Origin: Chloroflexota bacterium
GTDB taxonomy: Bacteria > Chloroflexota > Anaerolineae > Anaerolineales > Villigracilaceae
Direction of reading: 5' to 3'
Assembly (NCBI GenBank): GCA_021414245.1
Contig: JAIOOU010000017.1
Span: 186,001 to 250,000, forward strand
DNA: 64,000 nt
Under the pieces are notes generated by a model. It made no database searches. It was given only the letters and a program-made list of their open reading frames with translations, and was not told the origin of the DNA. The position numbers and the translations under genes are program-made. This document shows, in pieces, positions 17,413 to 26,356 of the stretch. Position 1 is the first letter of the stretch; each line of letters starts with the position of its first letter.

Positions 17413-18822
17413 ATGTGGCACGATTACATTCTCGCAACCTCCACCGATGAGGTGGTAAAAATTTTAGGGGAAAAGAAAACAAGCGCCCGCATCGTTGCCG
17501 GCGGCACGGACCTCATCCTTGAACTCGAACGCGGCCTGCGTAAAGGGGTCGACACTTTGATCGATGTCACCCGCATCCCCGGCCTGGATCGGATCACGAT
17601 CGACGAAGACGAAGTGATCCATCTTGGGCCGCTGGTCACTCACAACGATTGCGCCGCTTCAAAATTAATTCGCAAACGGGCGTATCCCCTGGCACGCGCC
17701 GCCTGGGAAGTCGGCGCACCGCAGATCCGCAACCGCGGCACGGTGGCCGGCAACCTGATCACCGCCTCCCCCGCCAACGACACCATCACGCCCCTGATGG
17801 CATTGGGTGCCAGGGTAACTCTCAGCTCGGAGGCCGGCGAACGAACCGTTCCATTAAAAGAATTTTATACCGGGGTGCGTAAAACCGTCATGCAGTCAGA
17901 TGAAATGCTGGTGGACATTTCCTTCTCCGCTTTAAAAGCCACCCAGCGTGGGACTTTCATCAAACTGGCGCTGCGCCGCGCCCAGGCCATTTCCCTCGTA
18001 AATGCGGCGATCATTCTGGACCTGAAAGAGGATACTGTCAAATCGGCAGTCATCACCTTGGGGGCCGTTACCCCGATCATCACCCGTGCCGAGGAAGCGG
18101 AAAAATTCCTGGCAAAGAAAAAACTGAACGACAAGAACATCACCCTGGCCGCGGATCTCGCCACCCATGCGGCTCATCCCATTGACGATGTGCGCGGTTC
18201 GGCGGCATACCGGCGCGAAATGGTCAAGGTGATCACTGCCCGGGGATTGAAGGCCATCCGTGATGAAAATGAACAGGATGGCATGCCTGCAAAGCCCATC
18301 CTTCTTCAAAACAAGGAAGTCGCCATACCTGCGCCGGCGGCTTCGGTTGAATTCCCCGCGGCGGCAATCGAAACCACAGTCAACGGAAAAAAATATTCCT
18401 TCAAGAGCGGTCACAGTAAAACCTTGTTGCGCCTCCTTCGCGAAGAAGGCATGTTAACCGGGACCAAGGAAGGTTGTGCCGAGGGGGAATGCGGTGCTTG
18501 CACGGTGTTTCTGAATGGCCGGGCGGTCATGTCCTGCCTTGTGCCTGCCCCGCGCGCGCATGGAGCGGAAATCACCACCATCGAAGGACTCGCCCACGAT
18601 GGAAACCTGCATTCAGTCCAGGAGGCGTTCATTCAGCACGGCGCTGTGCAATGTGGATACTGCACCCCGGGTTTCATCATGTCGGGTGCAATATTGCTCG
18701 AGGAGAAATCCAACCCTACCCGGAATGAGATCGAACAGGCCATCACCGGCAACCTGTGCAGATGCACAGGCTACTACAAGATCGTGAAGGCGATCGAAGA
18801 CGCGGCCAAATCCAAAACTTAA
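17413..18822 (+). CDS. Molybdenum hydroxylase FAD subunit fused to 2Fe-2S subunit
   Basis: 469 residues combining two subunits that are usually separate. Residues about 1-290 are the FAD-binding CoxM/XdhB-like domain with IVAGGTDLILELE, APQIRNRGTVAGNL and SPANDTITPLMAL. Residues about 315-469 are the XdhC/CoxS-like iron-sulphur domain with GCAEGECGACTVFLNG (plant-type 2Fe-2S) and QCGYCTPGF / NLCRCTGY (second cluster). It would pass electrons from the Moco site to NAD or another acceptor. The Moco subunit lies at 19262. There is no clear Shine-Dalgarno before the ATG. Confidence 0.85.
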   Translation: MWHDYILATSTDEVVKILGEKKTSARIVAGGTDLILELERGLRKGVDTLIDVTRIPGLDRITIDEDEVIHLGPLVTHNDCAASKLIRKRAYPLARAAWEVGAPQIRNRGTVAGNLITASPANDTITPLMALGARVTLSSEAGERTVPLKEFYTGVRKTVMQSDEMLVDISFSALKATQRGTFIKLALRRAQAISLVNAAIILDLKEDTVKSAVITLGAVTPIITRAEEAEKFLAKKKLNDKNITLAADLATHAAHPIDDVRGSAAYRREMVKVITARGLKAIRDENEQDGMPAKPILLQNKEVAIPAPAASVEFPAAAIETTVNGKKYSFKSGHSKTLLRLLREEGMLTGTKEGCAEGECGACTVFLNGRAVMSCLVPAPRAHGAEITTIEGLAHDGNLHSVQEAFIQHGAVQCGYCTPGFIMSGAILLEEKSNPTRNEIEQAITGNLCRCTGYYKIVKAIEDAAKSKT

Positions 18823-18832
18823 GAGGTAACTC

Positions 18833-19255
18833 ATGGGAAAATATACAAGCAGTTCAAGAAAAAGGATGAAACCAAAACCCGAGGGGCCGCATGCCATTTG
18901 GCGCGGCATCGGCTGCATCATGATTTTGATCATCCCGGCCATTTCGATTGCGGCCGGCATCGAAACGGTTAATTACGGATTGACGGAAAAATGGACCTTC
19001 CCCGTCCAGCTGCTCGGCTATCCCAAAATGCCGGATTTCTTCTATAAATCCAGCGGCCTGATGGCAATCTTCACACCCATCACCCGCATTCCAAATTTTT
19101 ACGCCCACGCCGCCGTCAGCTTCCTGTACATGGTCGCCATCGGCGGAGTAATCTCGGTGCTCTACGCGTTTGTATACAACATGGTCGGCCCGTCACGCTA
19201 CGGTCCCACCGATGCCCCTCCTCCGAAGATCAAGACCAAAAAATACACCCGATAG
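18833..19255 (+). CDS. Two-span membrane protein inside the Mo-hydroxylase operon
   Basis: 140 residues. A basic N-terminus is followed by a hydrophobic helix (about 24-44), a loop of about 60 residues containing LLGYPKMPDFFYKSSGLMA, a second helix (about 98-122) and a basic tail. GAGG precedes the ATG. It lies 10 bases after the FAD/Fe-S subunit and 6 before the Moco subunit, so it is surely co-expressed. It might tether the hydroxylase to the membrane, but this is only inferred from position. Confidence 0.6.
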   Translation: MGKYTSSSRKRMKPKPEGPHAIWRGIGCIMILIIPAISIAAGIETVNYGLTEKWTFPVQLLGYPKMPDFFYKSSGLMAIFTPITRIPNFYAHAAVSFLYMVAIGGVISVLYAFVYNMVGPSRYGPTDAPPPKIKTKKYTR

Positions 19256-19261
19256 GAACCT

Positions 19262-21442
19262 ATGTCTGAAGATTCTGTAGGCAAATCACTTCCCCGCATC
19301 GATGCCCGCGGCAAGGTGACTGGCGAAACCCAATACTCCGGCGACCTGTCGATGAATGGCATGTTGTACATGAAGATCCTTTTTGCCGAACGGCCGCACG
19401 CACGCGTGAAAAGTATTTATACAGGCACTGCCCAGGGCGCACCGGGCGTCATGGCCGTGTACACCGCCAAGGATGTGCCGGTCAATGAATATGGCCTTCA
19501 GATTCCGGACCAGCCGGTCCTGTGCGGCCCGGGAGCCGAAAAACCGTACACCGACATTGTCCGCTTTGTAGGGGATCAGGTTGCAGTTGTGGTGGCCAGA
19601 TCCGAGGTCGAAGCGGAAGCGGCTCTTAAGTTAATCCAGGTTGAATACGAAGACCTGCCGATTCTTTCCGACCCGATCACTGCCATGCGCCCTGATGCGC
19701 CCCGCCTGCATCCAGACAGGGGCGACTCAAACGTGTGTGTCCACTATAAGATCCGCAAAGGAGATGTTGATCTGGCTTTCGCAAAAGCGGACGTGATCGT
19801 CGAGGGGCAATATCATACCCCAGTGCAGGAACATGCCTTCCTGCAGCCCGAAGCGGGCCTTGCCTATATGGACAAGGACGGACATGTTACCATTCAATCC
19901 GGCGGTCAATGGACCCATGCCGACCGCGAGACCATCGCACACGCTCTTGGCCTGCCCGATGAAATGATCCGTGTCATCTACCCGGCCATTGGCGGGGCTT
20001 TTGGCGGACGTGAGGATCTGTCCGTGCAGATCGTGCTGGCGCTGGCTGCCTGGAAATTACAGCGGCCTGTCAAGATCGTCTGGACACGGCGTGAATCCAT
20101 GATCGGTCATGGGAAACGTCATGCAGTTAGCATCAAGGCTAAATGGGGTGCCACAAAAGACGGAAAACTGGTCGCCGCGGAAAGTGAATTGATCGGCGAC
20201 GGCGGCGCATATATGTATACCTCCAACAAGGTCCTCGGCAACGCTGCGATCACTTCGACCGGACCCTATTTCATTCCAAACGCAAAAGTCGATGTTTACG
20301 GGGTGTACACCAACAATGTCCCCGGCGCGGCTTTTCGAGGTTTTGGCGCACCACAGGCTTTGTTCATGGCCGAACAGCAAATGAACAAGCTGGCTGAAAA
20401 ACTGGGCATGGACCCGGTTGAATTCCGTTTGAAAAATGCCCTGCGGGATGGAGACACGATGGGCGTGGGCACACCGGCGCCAGGCCCGGTCAGTGTGGTG
20501 CAATGCATTGAAGCGGCCCGCGATAAATTCAACTGGAAAAAGACCAAACAAAAATCGAAGAAATCCCATCTTGTCCGCGGACATGGATTTGCCGCCGGCT
20601 TTAAGAATGTCGGTTTCTCCTTTGGCTATCAGGAAAATTGCTGGGCCAAGGTAGAGATCCATGGAAATGGAACCATGGAGAAAGCCATCGTCCATCACGC
20701 CGGTGCGGAAGTCGGACAGGGCACTCATACCGTCATGATCCAGATGGCGGCCCAGGTCCTGGGGATTCCGGAAAATAGAATTGAGCTCAAAACTTCTGAT
20801 TCCTCCACACAAGGCAACCCGGGCTCGGCCTCCGCCTCCCGCCTGACATTCATGGCCGGCAATTCCATCAAGGGCGCAGCCGAAGCCGCGCTGGATAAAT
20901 GGAACAGGGAAGAGCGTCCCGCGATCGCGGAGTTTAAGTATCTTGCGCCCCGGACCACTCCCTTCGATAAAGAGACCGGATATTCCAGTCCGAATTTTTC
21001 GTACGCCTATGTTGCCCAGGCGGCTGAAGTGGAAGTGGACACCGAAACCGGTCACATCCGGGTCCTTCGGATTACCTCAGCTGATGATGTCGGAAAAGCG
21101 ATCAATCCAGATCTCGTGGTCGGTCAGGTCGAGGGCGCAGTGGTGCAGGCTCATGGATATGCCATGCTCGAGGATTACAAGACAAAAGACGGCAAGGTGC
21201 TCACGGACCAATTTAGCACATACCTGATCCCCACCATTTGGGATATTCCCGAGTCGGTCGAATCGGTCCTGGTGGAAGTACCGGATCCCAACGGACCGTG
21301 GGGCGCACGCGGCGTGGGTGAATTACCCTTCCTGACAGTTGCTCCCGCCATCGCGGCAGCGATCCATGATGCGACCGGGGTATGGATCGATGAATTCCCG
21401 TTCACTCCGGAACGCGTATTGCGCTCCCTGGGAAAAATATAA
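19262..21442 (+). CDS. Molybdenum hydroxylase large (Moco) subunit, xanthine dehydrogenase type
   Basis: 726 residues, shorter than many of the family. Visible motifs are GKSLPRIDARGKVTGETQYSGD at the N-terminus, GGAFGGRED near 245, AAFRGFGAPQ near 356, and the C-terminal GVGELPFLTVAP with the catalytic Glu. The FRGFG form is that of purine hydroxylases (the Arg that positions xanthine), not the Cys loop of form I CO dehydrogenase. It probably oxidises a purine or related N-heterocycle. The YqeB, YqeC and MocA genes downstream suggest a selenium-dependent form. The substrate remains unproven. Confidence 0.8.
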   Translation: MSEDSVGKSLPRIDARGKVTGETQYSGDLSMNGMLYMKILFAERPHARVKSIYTGTAQGAPGVMAVYTAKDVPVNEYGLQIPDQPVLCGPGAEKPYTDIVRFVGDQVAVVVARSEVEAEAALKLIQVEYEDLPILSDPITAMRPDAPRLHPDRGDSNVCVHYKIRKGDVDLAFAKADVIVEGQYHTPVQEHAFLQPEAGLAYMDKDGHVTIQSGGQWTHADRETIAHALGLPDEMIRVIYPAIGGAFGGREDLSVQIVLALAAWKLQRPVKIVWTRRESMIGHGKRHAVSIKAKWGATKDGKLVAAESELIGDGGAYMYTSNKVLGNAAITSTGPYFIPNAKVDVYGVYTNNVPGAAFRGFGAPQALFMAEQQMNKLAEKLGMDPVEFRLKNALRDGDTMGVGTPAPGPVSVVQCIEAARDKFNWKKTKQKSKKSHLVRGHGFAAGFKNVGFSFGYQENCWAKVEIHGNGTMEKAIVHHAGAEVGQGTHTVMIQMAAQVLGIPENRIELKTSDSSTQGNPGSASASRLTFMAGNSIKGAAEAALDKWNREERPAIAEFKYLAPRTTPFDKETGYSSPNFSYAYVAQAAEVEVDTETGHIRVLRITSADDVGKAINPDLVVGQVEGAVVQAHGYAMLEDYKTKDGKVLTDQFSTYLIPTIWDIPESVESVLVEVPDPNGPWGARGVGELPFLTVAPAIAAAIHDATGVWIDEFPFTPERVLRSLGKI

Positions 21443-21511
21443 ATTCGATCACCACCGGAACCGGCATGGTTTCTTGTGCAGAGTCCGCCTGGTCGTTTTC
21501 AACCAGCCCTC

Positions 21512-22387
21512 ATGTCCTTTCCCTATTTGGATGAAGTCAAAGAGTTAAACGAGACCACCCGCCGCGAGGCAGGTGGTTCGTTCATCGTTCTTTCGGACGG
21601 GGTCACGCATTATGAACTGGCTGGGGGCATAAACGGCCGATTGGTGGTTCTTGTGCACGGCTTTTCGGTCCCGTCCTTCATCTTCGACAATACTTTTGAG
21701 TTCCTGATAAAAGCCGGCTTTCGAGTGCTCCGCTATGACCTTTTCGGGCGCGGATATTCGGACAGACCCCGCATCGCCTATAACGTGGAGGCCTTTGTAA
21801 GACAATTGAAGGAGCTACTCGATGGTTTGGGATTGAACCACGTGACCCTGGTCGGGCTATCCATGGGCGGTCCGATCACGACCGCTTTTATCGACCGATA
21901 TCCCGATTACGTCGACCGGCACGTTTTAATCGACCCGGCTGGCGCAAAACCTGTCCGGCTCTCCTTTCTTCTTAATTTTGCCAAAATTCCAATTCTCAGC
22001 GAACTGGCACTTGGTCTCTTGGGGAGTGGAAACATGGTTAAAAATATTGCAAGTGATCTGTTTGATTCGAGCATGGTCCGGCAATTTCAAGCCCAGTATC
22101 GAATCCAAATGCAATACAAGGGATTCAAAAGGGCAATACTCTCCACCATCCGCAATGGTTTGCTGGATTCCTTTGAAGATACCTACATCCGTGTGGGGAG
22201 TCTCCGAAAGCCTACTTTATTGTTCTGGGGCAGGAATGACTCAACCGTACCCTTTGACCACAGCCGGATCATCCAAAACGCCCTGCCTCACGCAGAGTTT
22301 CATGTGATCGAAAACTGCGGGCATATCCCTCATTTCGAAAAACCTGAGATCGTCAATCCGATCCTGGCGGAGTTTCTCTCAAAATGA
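21512..22387 (+). CDS. Alpha/beta hydrolase
   Basis: 291 residues with a standard fold. VLVHGFSVPSF is the oxyanion segment, GLSMGGPIT holds the nucleophile Ser, GRNDSTVPF the Asp, and CGHIPHFEKPE the catalytic His. It hydrolyses an ester or similar bond; the substrate is unknown. I chose ATG 21512; an in-frame GTG at 21476 would add 12 residues. It overlaps the DinB gene by 4 bases. It sits between the hydroxylase and its maturation genes, possibly by chance. Confidence 0.75.
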   Translation: MSFPYLDEVKELNETTRREAGGSFIVLSDGVTHYELAGGINGRLVVLVHGFSVPSFIFDNTFEFLIKAGFRVLRYDLFGRGYSDRPRIAYNVEAFVRQLKELLDGLGLNHVTLVGLSMGGPITTAFIDRYPDYVDRHVLIDPAGAKPVRLSFLLNFAKIPILSELALGLLGSGNMVKNIASDLFDSSMVRQFQAQYRIQMQYKGFKRAILSTIRNGLLDSFEDTYIRVGSLRKPTLLFWGRNDSTVPFDHSRIIQNALPHAEFHVIENCGHIPHFEKPEIVNPILAEFLSK

Positions 22388-22878
22388 ATAAAAAGGATAT
22401 TCAACTCTTATTCCAATACAATCAATGGGCAAACCGCAGGATCCTGAATGCCGCCGAAAATCTCACCCAGGACCAATTTCTCGCCCAGGCTTCCTTTCCA
22501 CACGGCGGACTACGCGGCACCTTGACCCACGCCCTGTTTGCGGAATGGATTTGGCGCACCCGCTGGCAGGGGGATTCCCCGGTCAATCGGATGAAAGCAG
22601 AGGATTTCCCAACCTTTTCGCTTCTCCGCGAAAGATGGTCGCAGGAGGAGAAGGCATTGAGCGCTTTTGTGGAAGGATTGGATGACAAAAGGTTAACTTC
22701 AACGTTTTCCTATCACACCACTCGAGGGGAAAAAATGGAGGAAGTGCTTTGGCATGCAATGGTTCACGTGGTCAATCACGGAACCCAACACAGAAGCGAA
22801 GCCGCCGCGATGCTGACTGATTTCGGGTGTTCGCCCGGTGATATTGATATGATCATTTACCTGCGGGAAGCGAAGTAA
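22384..22878 (+). CDS. DinB family protein
   Basis: 164-residue four-helix DinB/YfiT-like protein. The expected metal-ligand histidines are in LTHALFAEWIW (about 49), and HVVNHGTQHRSEAA (about 120-130). Such proteins include thiol-dependent transferases and hydrolases; many have no known role. NQWANRRIL at the N-terminus is a typical DinB signature. It overlaps the hydrolase gene by ATGA. Confidence 0.75.
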   Translation: MNKKDIQLLFQYNQWANRRILNAAENLTQDQFLAQASFPHGGLRGTLTHALFAEWIWRTRWQGDSPVNRMKAEDFPTFSLLRERWSQEEKALSAFVEGLDDKRLTSTFSYHTTRGEKMEEVLWHAMVHVVNHGTQHRSEAAAMLTDFGCSPGDIDMIIYLREAK

Positions 22879-22881
22879 CTC

Positions 22882-23595
22882 ATGTTTAATAAATTAAAAA
22901 CCGGTTTTCAGCGCAATCGCTACAAGATCGCAATATTTTTCCTGATGGCTTCCGCTTCAGCGGTCTGCGTCCTGCTCGTGGCAGCCCGCATCGCTTATAG
23001 TGATTCCGGCCGATATACAACCCTGGTTTGGAACCTGTTTCTTGCCTGGATCCCATTCATTCTGGCCTATTTCGCTTATGCATTCTCCTGGAAAAAATGG
23101 CAGCTATATCTGGTATTGCCGGCCTCCGCCTTCCTCTGGCTGATCTTTTTTCCAAATGCCCCCTACATCCTCACCGATCTGCAGCATCTCGCCAGGGAAA
23201 CCTCGAGCGCGCCAATTTGGTACGATGTCATCGTGATGGTCTGGTTCTCCTGGACCGGCTTGCTGCTTGGGCTGGTGTCCTTGTATCTGATGCACGATAT
23301 TGTCCAGCGTACTTTTGGGCGGTTGACGGGCTGGGCCTTCGTATTTATCGTATCCGGGCTGTCCAGTTTTGGCGTTTATTTGGGCCGCTTCGTCCGATTT
23401 AATTCGTGGGACATCCTGAATGACCCGAAGGAAATCGTCGTGACTATTCTGGGTTTGGCCGTCGATCCTTCAAAACGTCTGGTGGCTTTTACTGCCTTGT
23501 TTTCCATCTTCTACATTTTTGTCTACCTGACACTGTACTCCTTTGCCCACCTGCTTCAGGAGCAGACACATCCCATTCAAAAGGAACTGCCATGA
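22882..23595 (+). CDS. DUF1361 family membrane protein
   Basis: 237 residues with about seven membrane spans. The pattern FPNAPYILTDLQHL in the third or fourth loop, and GVYLGRFVRFNSWDIL later, are hallmarks of DUF1361 proteins, whose function is unknown. It overlaps the YqeB gene by 4 bases (ATGA). Confidence 0.75.
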   Translation: MFNKLKTGFQRNRYKIAIFFLMASASAVCVLLVAARIAYSDSGRYTTLVWNLFLAWIPFILAYFAYAFSWKKWQLYLVLPASAFLWLIFFPNAPYILTDLQHLARETSSAPIWYDVIVMVWFSWTGLLLGLVSLYLMHDIVQRTFGRLTGWAFVFIVSGLSSFGVYLGRFVRFNSWDILNDPKEIVVTILGLAVDPSKRLVAFTALFSIFYIFVYLTLYSFAHLLQEQTHPIQKELP

Positions 23596-24407
23596 AACCA
23601 TTAATTCTCCTGCGCGGCGGCGGCGATCTTGCCAGCGGCATCGCACTCCGATTGCACCGCATTGGATTTCAAATCGTGATCATCGAACTGGACCGGCCGC
23701 TTGCAATCCGCAGGACCGTTTCCTTTTCTGAGGCGATCTACGAGGGTGTCCAAACCGTCGAAGGGACCACCGCCCGACTGGTGTCGCCGGACCAGCTACA
23801 GGTCACGCTGGAACTGGGGGAAATCCCGATCATGGCCGATGCAAATGCCAATATCCTGCGAAACGAATTTTTAATCAGTCCACGCTCGACAGTGGTGATC
23901 GATGCCCGGCTGCTGAAGTCCGAGCCTGAACTTCTCGCCTCGACCGTGGCTCTGCACATCGGTCTTGGACCCGGTTTCACGGCCGGTGAAAATTGCACCG
24001 CCGTCATAGAGACCCGTCGTGGGCACACGCTTGGACGAGTGTACTGGACGGGGTCCGCACAACCGGATAGCGGTCAGCCGGATGGCGATCCAAAACGGGT
24101 CCTGCGCTCGACTGTCAGCGGCAATCTGCTGACGCATGCAGAGATTGGCGATCAGGTAAAGGAGGGGCAGCTGCTGGCTGAGATCCAAACCAGTGCCGGG
24201 GAAAAAATAAAGATCCTCAGCCCCATGGCCGGTGTGTTGCGAGGTATGCTCCGCCCGGGTTTTCAGGTTTCAGAAGGCATGAAGATCGCAGACGTCGATC
24301 CACGAAATGATCCGAGTGCCTGCCATCTGGTTTCAGACAAGGCATTGGCCGTGGCAGGCGGGGTTATGGAAACCGTGTTAACGTATGTAAATTCCGTTGA
24401 GGAATAG
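23592..24407 (+). CDS. yqeB: YqeB / EF2563-type selenium-dependent molybdenum hydroxylase system protein
   Basis: 271 residues. The N-terminal LILLRGGGDLASGIALRLHR is a Rossmann nucleotide-binding loop typical of EF2563/YqeB proteins. The middle has GPGFTAGENCTAVIETRRGHTLG, and the C-terminus GVMETVLTYV. This family is a marker of selenium-dependent molybdenum hydroxylases, whose cofactor carries a labile selenium atom derived from selenophosphate (SelD). It supports a Se-dependent form of the hydroxylase at 17413-21442. No selD is present in the window. Confidence 0.8.
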   Translation: MKPLILLRGGGDLASGIALRLHRIGFQIVIIELDRPLAIRRTVSFSEAIYEGVQTVEGTTARLVSPDQLQVTLELGEIPIMADANANILRNEFLISPRSTVVIDARLLKSEPELLASTVALHIGLGPGFTAGENCTAVIETRRGHTLGRVYWTGSAQPDSGQPDGDPKRVLRSTVSGNLLTHAEIGDQVKEGQLLAEIQTSAGEKIKILSPMAGVLRGMLRPGFQVSEGMKIADVDPRNDPSACHLVSDKALAVAGGVMETVLTYVNSVEE

Positions 24408-24443
24408 TTCAAGGGAAGCGTTGTCTTCCATGACCTGGCAACT

Positions 24444-25772
24444 ATGAATCTTAGGAAAGCATTTCGGCTTGAACTCGCGTCGGCCGGGACCCCAGTTATT
24501 AGTTTCGTCGGTGCCGGGGGGAAAACAACAGCGATCTTTCGATTGGCACGGGAATTTCTCGAGGATTATCCAAGTGTAGTGATCACTGCAACCACCCACT
24601 TTGCCGCAGAACAAATTCAGTTGGCAGATCACCATGTAGTGGATACTGAAAAAAAACAATTCAGCGACCTGCCAACGGAAGGAGTTATCCTCATCACAGG
24701 CGGTGTCATAGATGGCAGAACCGCTCCGATCGGACCGGAGAGCCTAAAATGGCTACGCGAAAGTCATCAGGGGAGAAATATCCCCCTTCTTATTGAGGCT
24801 GACGGCTCCCGCCAAAAGCCTGTCAAATCACCCGCTTCCCACGAACCTCCGATTCCCGATTTCTGCACACATGTCATTGTGGTTTCAGGATTGGCCGCCT
24901 TGGGCCAACCCCTGTCAGATGAATTTGTCCACCGGCCGGAAATATTTTCAGAGTTGAGCGGCCTGCAGAAAAACGATCCCGTCACCGCAGACGCCCTGGT
25001 CAAAGTACTCACCCATCCGCATGGCGGATTAAAGAATATCCCTTTACGTGCACGAAAAACAGCCTTCTTAAATCAAGCCGAATCGACCGAACTGCAGTCC
25101 ATTGGCGGGAACATGGCCATAAAGCTGCTCGATAAATTTGACAGCGTTACAGTCGGAACGCTAAACAGCTCTCATTATCAGGCATTCGAATACACAGCTG
25201 GAATTGTCCTTGCTGCAGGTGAATCCAAACGATTTGGATTGCCCAAACAATTATTGGATTGGAAGGGCAAGCCCTTTGTAAGACAGGTTACAGAGACCGC
25301 GCTTCAAGCGGGACTTTGGCCTGTTGTGATCGTCACAGGCTCTCACGCCCCCGAATTGGAATCTGTTTTACAAGACCTTCCTGTAAAATTAGCATACAAT
25401 CCTGATTATTCCCTGGGACAAAGCACCTCGATCCGGACCGGACTTAAGTCCTTGAACCCAAATACGGGATCAGCTGTTTTTCTGCTTGCGGACCAGCCGC
25501 AAATTCCCGCTGCTGTGATCCGCGCTTTGACAGAGTCGCATTCACAAAAATTACAATCCATCCTTGCCCCCCTGGTTTTGGAGGAACGCCGCGCCAATCC
25601 AGTTTTATTTGACCATGTGACCTTCCCTGATCTCTTAAATCTCACCGGTGATGTGGGTGGGCGGGCCATCTTTGATAAATATCGTGTGGAGTATCTCCCC
25701 TGGCACGACGATATCTTATTATTCGATGTCGACAATCCCGGGGACTACCAGCGATTAATGGAACTGGAATGA
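24444..25772 (+). CDS. YqeC-MocA fusion, molybdenum hydroxylase maturation protein
   Basis: 442 residues. The N-terminal half (1-240) is YqeC-like: VISFVGAGGKTTAIFRLA is a P-loop, followed by TATTHF and LLIEADGSRQKPVKSP. The C-terminal half (about 250-442) is a MobA/MocA nucleotidyltransferase with GIVLAAGESKRFGLPKQLL and LLADQPQIP. MocA adds CMP to molybdopterin to form MCD, the cofactor of bacterial hydroxylases. Both are usually separate genes, so the fusion couples the Se-linked YqeC function to cytidylylation. There is no obvious ribosome site. Confidence 0.8.
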   Translation: MNLRKAFRLELASAGTPVISFVGAGGKTTAIFRLAREFLEDYPSVVITATTHFAAEQIQLADHHVVDTEKKQFSDLPTEGVILITGGVIDGRTAPIGPESLKWLRESHQGRNIPLLIEADGSRQKPVKSPASHEPPIPDFCTHVIVVSGLAALGQPLSDEFVHRPEIFSELSGLQKNDPVTADALVKVLTHPHGGLKNIPLRARKTAFLNQAESTELQSIGGNMAIKLLDKFDSVTVGTLNSSHYQAFEYTAGIVLAAGESKRFGLPKQLLDWKGKPFVRQVTETALQAGLWPVVIVTGSHAPELESVLQDLPVKLAYNPDYSLGQSTSIRTGLKSLNPNTGSAVFLLADQPQIPAAVIRALTESHSQKLQSILAPLVLEERRANPVLFDHVTFPDLLNLTGDVGGRAIFDKYRVEYLPWHDDILLFDVDNPGDYQRLMELE

Positions 25773-26356
25773 CAATCACAGCAATCGTTCTTGCCGCAGG
25801 GCAGTCAAAACGCATGGGACAACCTAAATTGACCCTACCCTGGGGAAACACCACTGTCATCGGAAAAGCGATCGAAACCATTACTCTTGCCGGGATTGAC
25901 GATGTTCTCGTGGTCACCGGTGGGGCGAAGGAAGAAGTGAAAAACGTCATCGCCGGTTTCGGCGTACGATCCATACACAATAAAAACTTCGCCAAGGCTG
26001 AGATGCTTTCCTCCATCCAGCTGGGTTTAAGCGGGCAGACTGCTGAAAGCGAAGCCGTCCTGATTTGCCTCGGCGACCAGCCGCAGGTTACGAAGGAATG
26101 TGTGCAAATTGTCTGCAAAGCCTACTATGAAGGAGATCGAAGCGGCATCGTTGTACCCAGCTATCAAATGCGGCGCGGACATCCCTGGTTAATTGCCAGA
26201 AAATACTGGGTGGAAATACTTCAGATGCAATCCACTGAAACCATGCGCGATTTTATGCACAGGCATGCTGGGGAGATCCACTATGTTCAATGGGACTCGC
26301 CGGCCATCCTTCAGGATCTGGATACACCGGAAGACTACTTGAAATATAGACCCTGA
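25769..26356 (+). CDS. Molybdenum cofactor nucleotidyltransferase (MocA-like)
   Basis: 195 residues. IVLAAGQSKRMGQPKLTLPWG binds the nucleotide, and CLGDQPQVT contains the metal-binding Asp. It is a second MocA-like protein next to the fused one, joined by an ATGA overlap. It probably makes MCD or a variant cofactor; another possibility is a role on a different nucleotide. The C-terminal QDLDTPEDY motif matches the family. Confidence 0.8.
   Translation: MTITAIVLAAGQSKRMGQPKLTLPWGNTTVIGKAIETITLAGIDDVLVVTGGAKEEVKNVIAGFGVRSIHNKNFAKAEMLSSIQLGLSGQTAESEAVLICLGDQPQVTKECVQIVCKAYYEGDRSGIVVPSYQMRRGHPWLIARKYWVEILQMQSTETMRDFMHRHAGEIHYVQWDSPAILQDLDTPEDYLKYRP

Follow-up and report, generated by a model that had tools for sequence, protein, structure and literature searches.

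Nine genes on the forward strand, running from 17413 to 26356 of a 64,000-nucleotide stretch of DNA from a Chloroflexota bacterium of the class Anaerolineae (assembly GCA_021414245.1; the whole stretch is called the window below), encode a molybdenum hydroxylase, YqeB, a fusion of YqeC with a MocA-like domain, and a second MocA-like protein. We favor, with moderate confidence, the explanation that this is a hydroxylase operon in which synthesis of the molybdopterin cytosine dinucleotide (MCD) form of the cofactor is combined with a selenium step involving YqeB and YqeC. The gene identities are sound: all five proteins named in the initial annotation are located in this interval, with matches far beyond chance. 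YqeB (271 aa, 23592–24407), a candidate selenium-insertion factor, scores 265.8 bits on TIGR03309 (cut-off 220). The next gene (24444–25772) carries YqeC at its N-terminus (residues ~1–235; TIGR03172, 157.2 bits against a cut-off of 73.05), with a P-loop-like GxGGK motif and an EADG motif, followed by a MocA-like cytidylyltransferase domain (~250–442; NTP_transf_3). The stand-alone MocA-like nucleotidyltransferase (195 aa, 25769–26356) likewise matches NTP_transf_3, and neither copy reaches the curated MocA cut-off (TIGR03310, 186.45), the fusion scoring 139.8 bits and the stand-alone copy 160.3. The enzyme itself consists of a 469-aa protein (17413–18822) in which an N-terminal FAD part is joined to a C-terminal 2Fe-2S part, as had been annotated (four Pfam domains: FAD_binding_5, CO_deh_flav_C, Fer2, and Fer2_2), and of a 726-aa molybdenum cofactor (Moco) subunit of the xanthine dehydrogenase (XDH) superfamily (19262–21442; Ald_Xan_dh_C, MoCoBD_1, and MoCoBD_2).

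As families, MocA proteins use CTP and XdhC proteins insert sulfur. Under the explanation we favor, the operon would combine a molybdenum hydroxylase with the final stages of making its cofactor: the MocA domain of the fusion, like the second MocA, would convert Mo-molybdopterin to MCD by cytidylylation, while YqeB, together with the P-loop domain YqeC attached to MocA, would put selenium on the cofactor molybdenum before transfer to the apo-enzyme, with selenophosphate supplied by a SelD encoded elsewhere in the genome. Selenium would be optional, as relatives in which YqeB and SelD were not found have the enzyme, and XdhC, encoded nearby in some of their families, would supply sulfur. Spacing suggests that the nine genes form one transcript (gaps of −4 to +36 nt by their coordinates, with 99 nt of free DNA 5′ of the first gene and 376 nt 3′ of the last); scans of the cluster for promoters and terminators gave nothing better than shuffled sequence. 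The cluster sits on contig 1 of a 3.87-Mb genome (17 contigs, 98.25% complete).

Fusion of YqeC to MocA and gene order in relatives

To place the cluster among its relatives, we surveyed 396 Anaerolineae genomes, the source genome included, with E-value thresholds of 1e-3 for YqeC, 1e-30 for SelD, and 1e-10 for YqeB; associations are Fisher tests that ignore kinship among genomes, and labels such as f23 (a family) and G or L numbers are anonymous identifiers. Among the stronger YqeC matches, to which the list of 150 was confined, 136 fall in frames of at least 430 aa. Contigs left room around 102 YqeC loci, 100 of which were fetched, and because YqeC and MocA share one frame in 92 of these, the fusion is common in the class and not a peculiarity of the source genome. 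In other Chloroflexota classes, where YqeC was found in 37 genomes (phylum sample of 251), none of the 20 loci fetched has the fusion; YqeC and MocA lie close together, unfused, in some of them (L237, L238, and L244). In one class genome (G181) a 771-aa frame (L138:8684–10996) contains YqeB, then YqeC, then MocA, the first two over their cut-offs and MocA under. Neither the YqeC-MocA fusion nor a link between yqeC and a cytidylyltransferase was found in the literature searched, a search that left most subscription-journal papers outside.

The order enzyme, YqeB, YqeC-MocA is shared by relatives in several families. A fuller arrangement recurs, in which a C-type hydroxylase (the type of hydroxylase C, described below), XdhC, the FAD-2Fe-2S protein, a small protein, the Moco subunit, YqeB, and YqeC-MocA follow one another; it is seen in Bellilinea caldifistulae GOMI-1 (L207) and Thermanaerothrix daxensis GNS-1 (L185). 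In 27 of the 100 class loci, a window-type Moco gene precedes YqeC on the same strand. We also examined 80 named loci, the best of 548 confirmed places, all titled Chloroflexota (some of their genus names we take to be placed in that phylum): 40 have the window-type Moco gene, 54 have YqeB, 38 have both, and 32 have the fused FAD-2Fe-2S gene, the FAD part being fused to 2Fe-2S in all 32 that show it (in L152 only an FeS piece is visible, near the locus end). The YqeC-MocA protein of the window is ~60% identical to proteins from records titled Anaerolineales bacterium or Chloroflexi bacterium. Near the YqeC-MocA gene of L132 stands an SsnA gene (L132:6778–8109) that is over its cut-off; its BLAST cluster, of which this representative was profile-scanned, spans 12 loci without an upstream window-type enzyme.

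Compared with the loci described for selenium-dependent molybdenum hydroxylases (SDMHs) in Escherichia coli, Enterococcus faecalis, and C. difficile, the accessory families are alike (YqeB, YqeC, and YgfJ/MocA, beside a hydroxylase, with selD in the genome). Unlike them, the window has FAD and 2Fe-2S in one protein and a small membrane-protein-like gene between the subunits. In E. coli K-12, YqeC and MocA are two genes, and YqeB is a 541-aa protein annotated as XdhC-CoxI family, against 271 aa here.

Selenium supply and its possible coupling to the cofactor genes

A selD gene lies on another contig of the source genome (350 bits, cut-off 125), as the initial annotation had anticipated; it has one in-frame TGA, and its frame runs through when this is taken as selenocysteine. 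Because SelB (325.6 bits, cut-off 242.25) and a tRNA-Sec (66.4 bits, gathering score 47) are also present, selD is shared with selenocysteine and proves little by itself. We considered it as a deciding criterion and dropped it for this reason, SelD being found in 326 of the 396 class genomes in any case. SelD, YqeB, and YqeC, which together make up the selenium-cofactor trait, are all found, with a hydroxylase in the same cluster. Elsewhere in the class, four genomes with two selD matches (G243, G263, G049, and G375) have one TGA-less match within a frame of 743–772 aa, the SelD part being C-terminal in that of G263 (L230). In another genome of the order of the source genome (G253, L069), SelD, YqeC, YqeB, and a frame that matches XdhC twice are adjacent, and YqeC is not fused to MocA.

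The selenocysteine machinery bears on a different interpretation, that the genes serve MCD maturation in general, that this organism takes no selenium step, and that selD serves selenocysteine only. SelB, tRNA-Sec, and the TGA in selD itself fit this, as does family f23, in which YqeC-MocA and XdhC accompany the enzyme where neither YqeB nor SelD was found, including in the single-contig genome G326. We nevertheless judge it quite improbable, since YqeB is associated with SelD, which occurs in 219 of 241 YqeB-positive and 107 of 155 YqeB-negative genomes (p = 6e-8), and since loss of yqeB in C. difficile resembles loss of selD during growth on xanthine and urate, as described in part of PMC11448449. 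An accessory role in SDMHs has been proposed for YqeB, YqeC, and YgfJ in a report that also describes YqeB-XdhC fusions (PMC2276186), and another report uses YqeB with YqeC as a signature (PMC5029168).

The YqeC sequences argue further against a set without a selenium step. YqeC was found in 264 class genomes, 215 of which also have YqeB, and 109 of the 264 were aligned (92 of the 215 with YqeB and 17 of the 49 without). GxGGK is present in all 109. The glycine of the EADG motif (G121) is intact in every one of the 92 YqeB-positive genomes, but 8 of the 17 YqeB-negative ones have another residue there (p = 6e-8). The eight changes (to N, T, T, Y, N, A, D, and D) all fall in f23, where they affect every YqeB-negative genome examined (8 of 8, with no YqeB match at E ≤ 1e-10); because a single loss in an ancestor of f23 might account for them all, the independent evidence is smaller than a count of eight. 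The glycine is also kept in all 75 full-length fusions from the named loci (73 by pattern and 2 by eye), and the 20 loci of the other classes have it too (19 by pattern and 1 by eye). In the eight f23 genomes the fusion adjoins the enzyme, XdhC is in the locus in six, and the MocA site residues checked are retained except for Ala to Gly in two genomes and Leu to Met in one. The MocA halves of G326 and G356 (L266 and L268) read LAGG, with Ala at the third place in the 13 others checked; this Ala is conserved in at least 90% of 50 aligned sequences. We had at one time thought YqeC unrelated to selenium, as YqeC-MocA is found in SelD-negative genomes, and withdrew this given the altered EADG in YqeB-negative f23.

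That the fusion couples selenium insertion with cytidylylation, as the initial annotation hinted, is plausible rather than demonstrated: among the sequences examined, the EADG glycine is altered only in genomes lacking a YqeB match. YqeB and YqeC acting as one functional module would fit this pattern, and would also fit G357, a genome of the order of the source genome in which SelD, YqeB, and YqeC are all unmatched while a C-type hydroxylase, XdhC, the enzyme, and a stand-alone MocA are present; G320, G327, and G387, of the same genus, have SelD, YqeB, and YqeC. More tentatively, one might picture a facultative selenium enzyme, with Anaerolineae lineages switching between sulfur and selenium through loss of YqeB (and SelD) while keeping the enzyme, XdhC, and MocA; YqeC would be the P-loop partner of YqeB within MocA, coupling the selenium step to MCD synthesis, and EADG would decay after YqeB is lost, the fusion being kept for its MocA half. 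The fusion, common in the class, the triple fusion, and the motif change in a family missing YqeB suggest a position for YqeC that experiments could probe, beside YqeB and at cytidylylation, and the question can be approached in cultured relatives that share the gene order. Selenium placement on molybdenum hydroxylases is called unknown, and the apparent inequality of YqeB and YqeC puzzling, in passages of PMC11448449.

Several findings weigh against a selenium operon and have to be set beside this evidence. YqeC adds no significant association with SelD once YqeB status is given (p = 0.27 and 0.46), and a C. difficile yqeC deletion shows no obvious phenotype according to part of PMC11448449. 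Eighteen genomes carry YqeB and YqeC without a SelD match at E ≤ 1e-30; in a laxer search of 13 YqeC-positive, SelD-negative genomes, six of them from the 18, none exceeded 125 bits, and four of those six (G084, G325, G135, and G056) gave matches of 86.8–94.5 bits, which may be divergent relatives of SelD. G121 is intact in 9 of the 17 YqeB-negative genomes, two of which (G016 and G162) are among the six of the 17 that lack SelD as well; absence of YqeB from draft assemblies may account for part of the nine. The window-type enzyme, called at a best E ≤ 1e-235 (a threshold of our choosing, with a list compiled by hand), is found in 212 of the 396 genomes and is not associated with SelD (173 of 212 against a background of 326 of 396; p = 0.69), and it occurs in 30 genomes in which neither YqeB nor SelD was found. 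Calls of enzyme absence are unreliable, at most two candidates having been scored per genome; G084 has the enzyme (L045) and yet falls under the threshold.

Because of these 30 genomes, the enzyme does not appear obligately selenium-bound; nor does its family, taken as a whole, appear tied to selenium, which is probably optional for the enzyme. The enzyme is found in 22 genomes with none of SelD, YqeB, and YqeC, and it is only weakly associated with YqeB (present in 142 of 212 enzyme-positive genomes against 99 of 184 others; p = 0.01). On a tree of 46 enzymes and an outgroup, for which SelD-negative genomes were deliberately chosen, the SelD label switches eight times, at least seven of them on well-supported branches, and in a comparison of 46 enzyme sequences no mark splits YqeB-positive from YqeB-negative genomes, the best column doing so only partially. 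The selenium reading is likely for YqeB and YqeC; for the window enzyme it is unproven. The annotation of the cluster as a selenium hydroxylase unit is partly supported, by selD, by the association of YqeB with SelD, and by the fusion; it is weakened by the sharing of selD with selenocysteine, by the 30 genomes, and by two other hydroxylases that are possible clients.

Other hydroxylases and the active site

A MoCoBD_1 search finds three hydroxylases in the genome. Hydroxylase B (contig 6, C6:470–475 kb) is encoded by an FAD gene of its own and a second gene in which FeS and Moco parts are fused, and lies, by eye, after a predicted ABC transporter; in L037 a small gene (L037:5391–5807) that by eye is unrelated to the enzyme stands between these FAD and FeS-Moco genes of hydroxylase B. 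Hydroxylase C (C1:362–370 kb) is ~150 kb from the window genes and scores 701.4 bits on TIGR03313 (cut-off 1101.9). Either could be a selenium client of YqeB, so that the window enzyme is not the sole possible client. If B or C were the actual client, YqeB and YqeC would still be real selenium factors, with the window enzyme sulfurated via XdhC. Hydroxylase B is nearer than the window enzyme to the selenium-dependent XDH profile TIGR03311 (760.8 against 487.5 bits, cut-off 830.45) and retains every xanthine-binding residue checked; at these sites C has the same residues as E. coli XdhD; the sole XdhC_C match of the genome lies ~4 kb beyond the Moco gene of C; and the 30 genomes with the enzyme and neither YqeB nor SelD point the same way. 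We consider this rather unlikely all the same, as YqeB and YqeC adjoin the window-type enzyme in several families, and as the class loci contain a B-type match in 1 of 100 and a C-type match in 6 of 100, the window type reaching 27 of 100; in the named loci the C type is found in 14 of 80 and the window type in 40 of 80.

The Moco subunit of the window had been labeled purine-type. That it is a Moco subunit holds, whereas the purine label is doubtful on its residues and scores. Its best NCBIfam match is TIGR03196 (pucD), at 602.4 bits under a cut-off of 783.65, and it reaches no curated XDH equivalog cut-off, that of XdhA included. The domain plan resembles that of XDH (PucD, XdhA, and bovine XDH), and in a counted alignment with bovine xanthine oxidase E251, F361, and E687 correspond to E802, F914, and E1261, but N327 replaces R880; every one of 38 window-type sequences has this Asn (18 in one alignment and 20 more), which predicts poor turnover of xanthine. 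In the human enzyme the equivalents of E802, R880, and E1261 serve substrate binding and catalysis, the Arg being crucial for hydroxylation at the 8-position, according to passages of PMC3509653. E. coli XdhD and XdhA, the latter annotated as a putative XDH, are also without the Arg, which hydroxylase B has; because XdhA too does without it, purine substrates would be less likely but possible. The large molybdopterin subunit of Eubacterium barkeri nicotinate dehydrogenase (3hrd), which we take to be a Mo-Se enzyme, aligns with the window subunit at 287 bits; its Moco part is in two chains against one here, and the position of R880 is, by eye, Arg against Asn here. A phosphorylase-superfamily gene (PNP_UDP_1) near the cluster in L055, L266, and L268 is a possible substrate hint.

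Predicted structures and neighboring genes

The model of the YqeC-MocA fusion (pLDDT 94.3, pTM 0.92) suggests that its two domains are held in a fixed arrangement. Its MocA half resembles the MocA/MobA nucleotidyltransferase Rv0371c (2we9; Z 25.4, rmsd 1.9 Å over 188 residues), which, unlike the fusion, carries no N-terminal YqeC; this half is predicted to have the MobA-like fold, and the stand-alone copy has its NTP_transf_3 profile match. For YqeC, the PDB comparison of the fusion returned the MocA half only, and a profile search gave only weak P-loop matches (FtsY, E ~0.008). YqeB (pLDDT 94.4) is modeled as a barrel like that of carboxyl- and biotinyl-carrier proteins (~165–238; 5gu9, Z 11.0) and a Rossmann-like part. 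The latter matches 3on5 (Z 10.5) and 2we8 (Z 9.8), presumably XdhC-family chains, level with chains of GAPDH; as these tie, the fold match is no evidence for an XdhC origin of YqeB. A likeness of YqeB to carrier proteins is remarked on in part of PMC11448449.

Four genes in the same run had gone unmentioned in the initial annotation. Three lie between the Moco subunit and YqeB and encode an alpha/beta hydrolase (21476–22387; Abhydrolase_1), a DinB-family protein (22384–22878; PF05163), and a DUF1361 protein (22882–23595; PF07099). The fourth (18833–19255), between the enzyme subunits, encodes a 140-aa protein that by eye is membrane-protein-like, with two hydrophobic stretches; profile scans matched it to no Pfam or NCBIfam family. 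It is a single-copy gene in the genome, and a homologue is present in 22 of the 32 named loci having both enzyme genes. A gene for a DUF6909 protein (PF21850) separates the FAD-2Fe-2S gene from the Moco gene in three loci (L055:13416–15167, L256:5511–7229, and L268:6171–7916).

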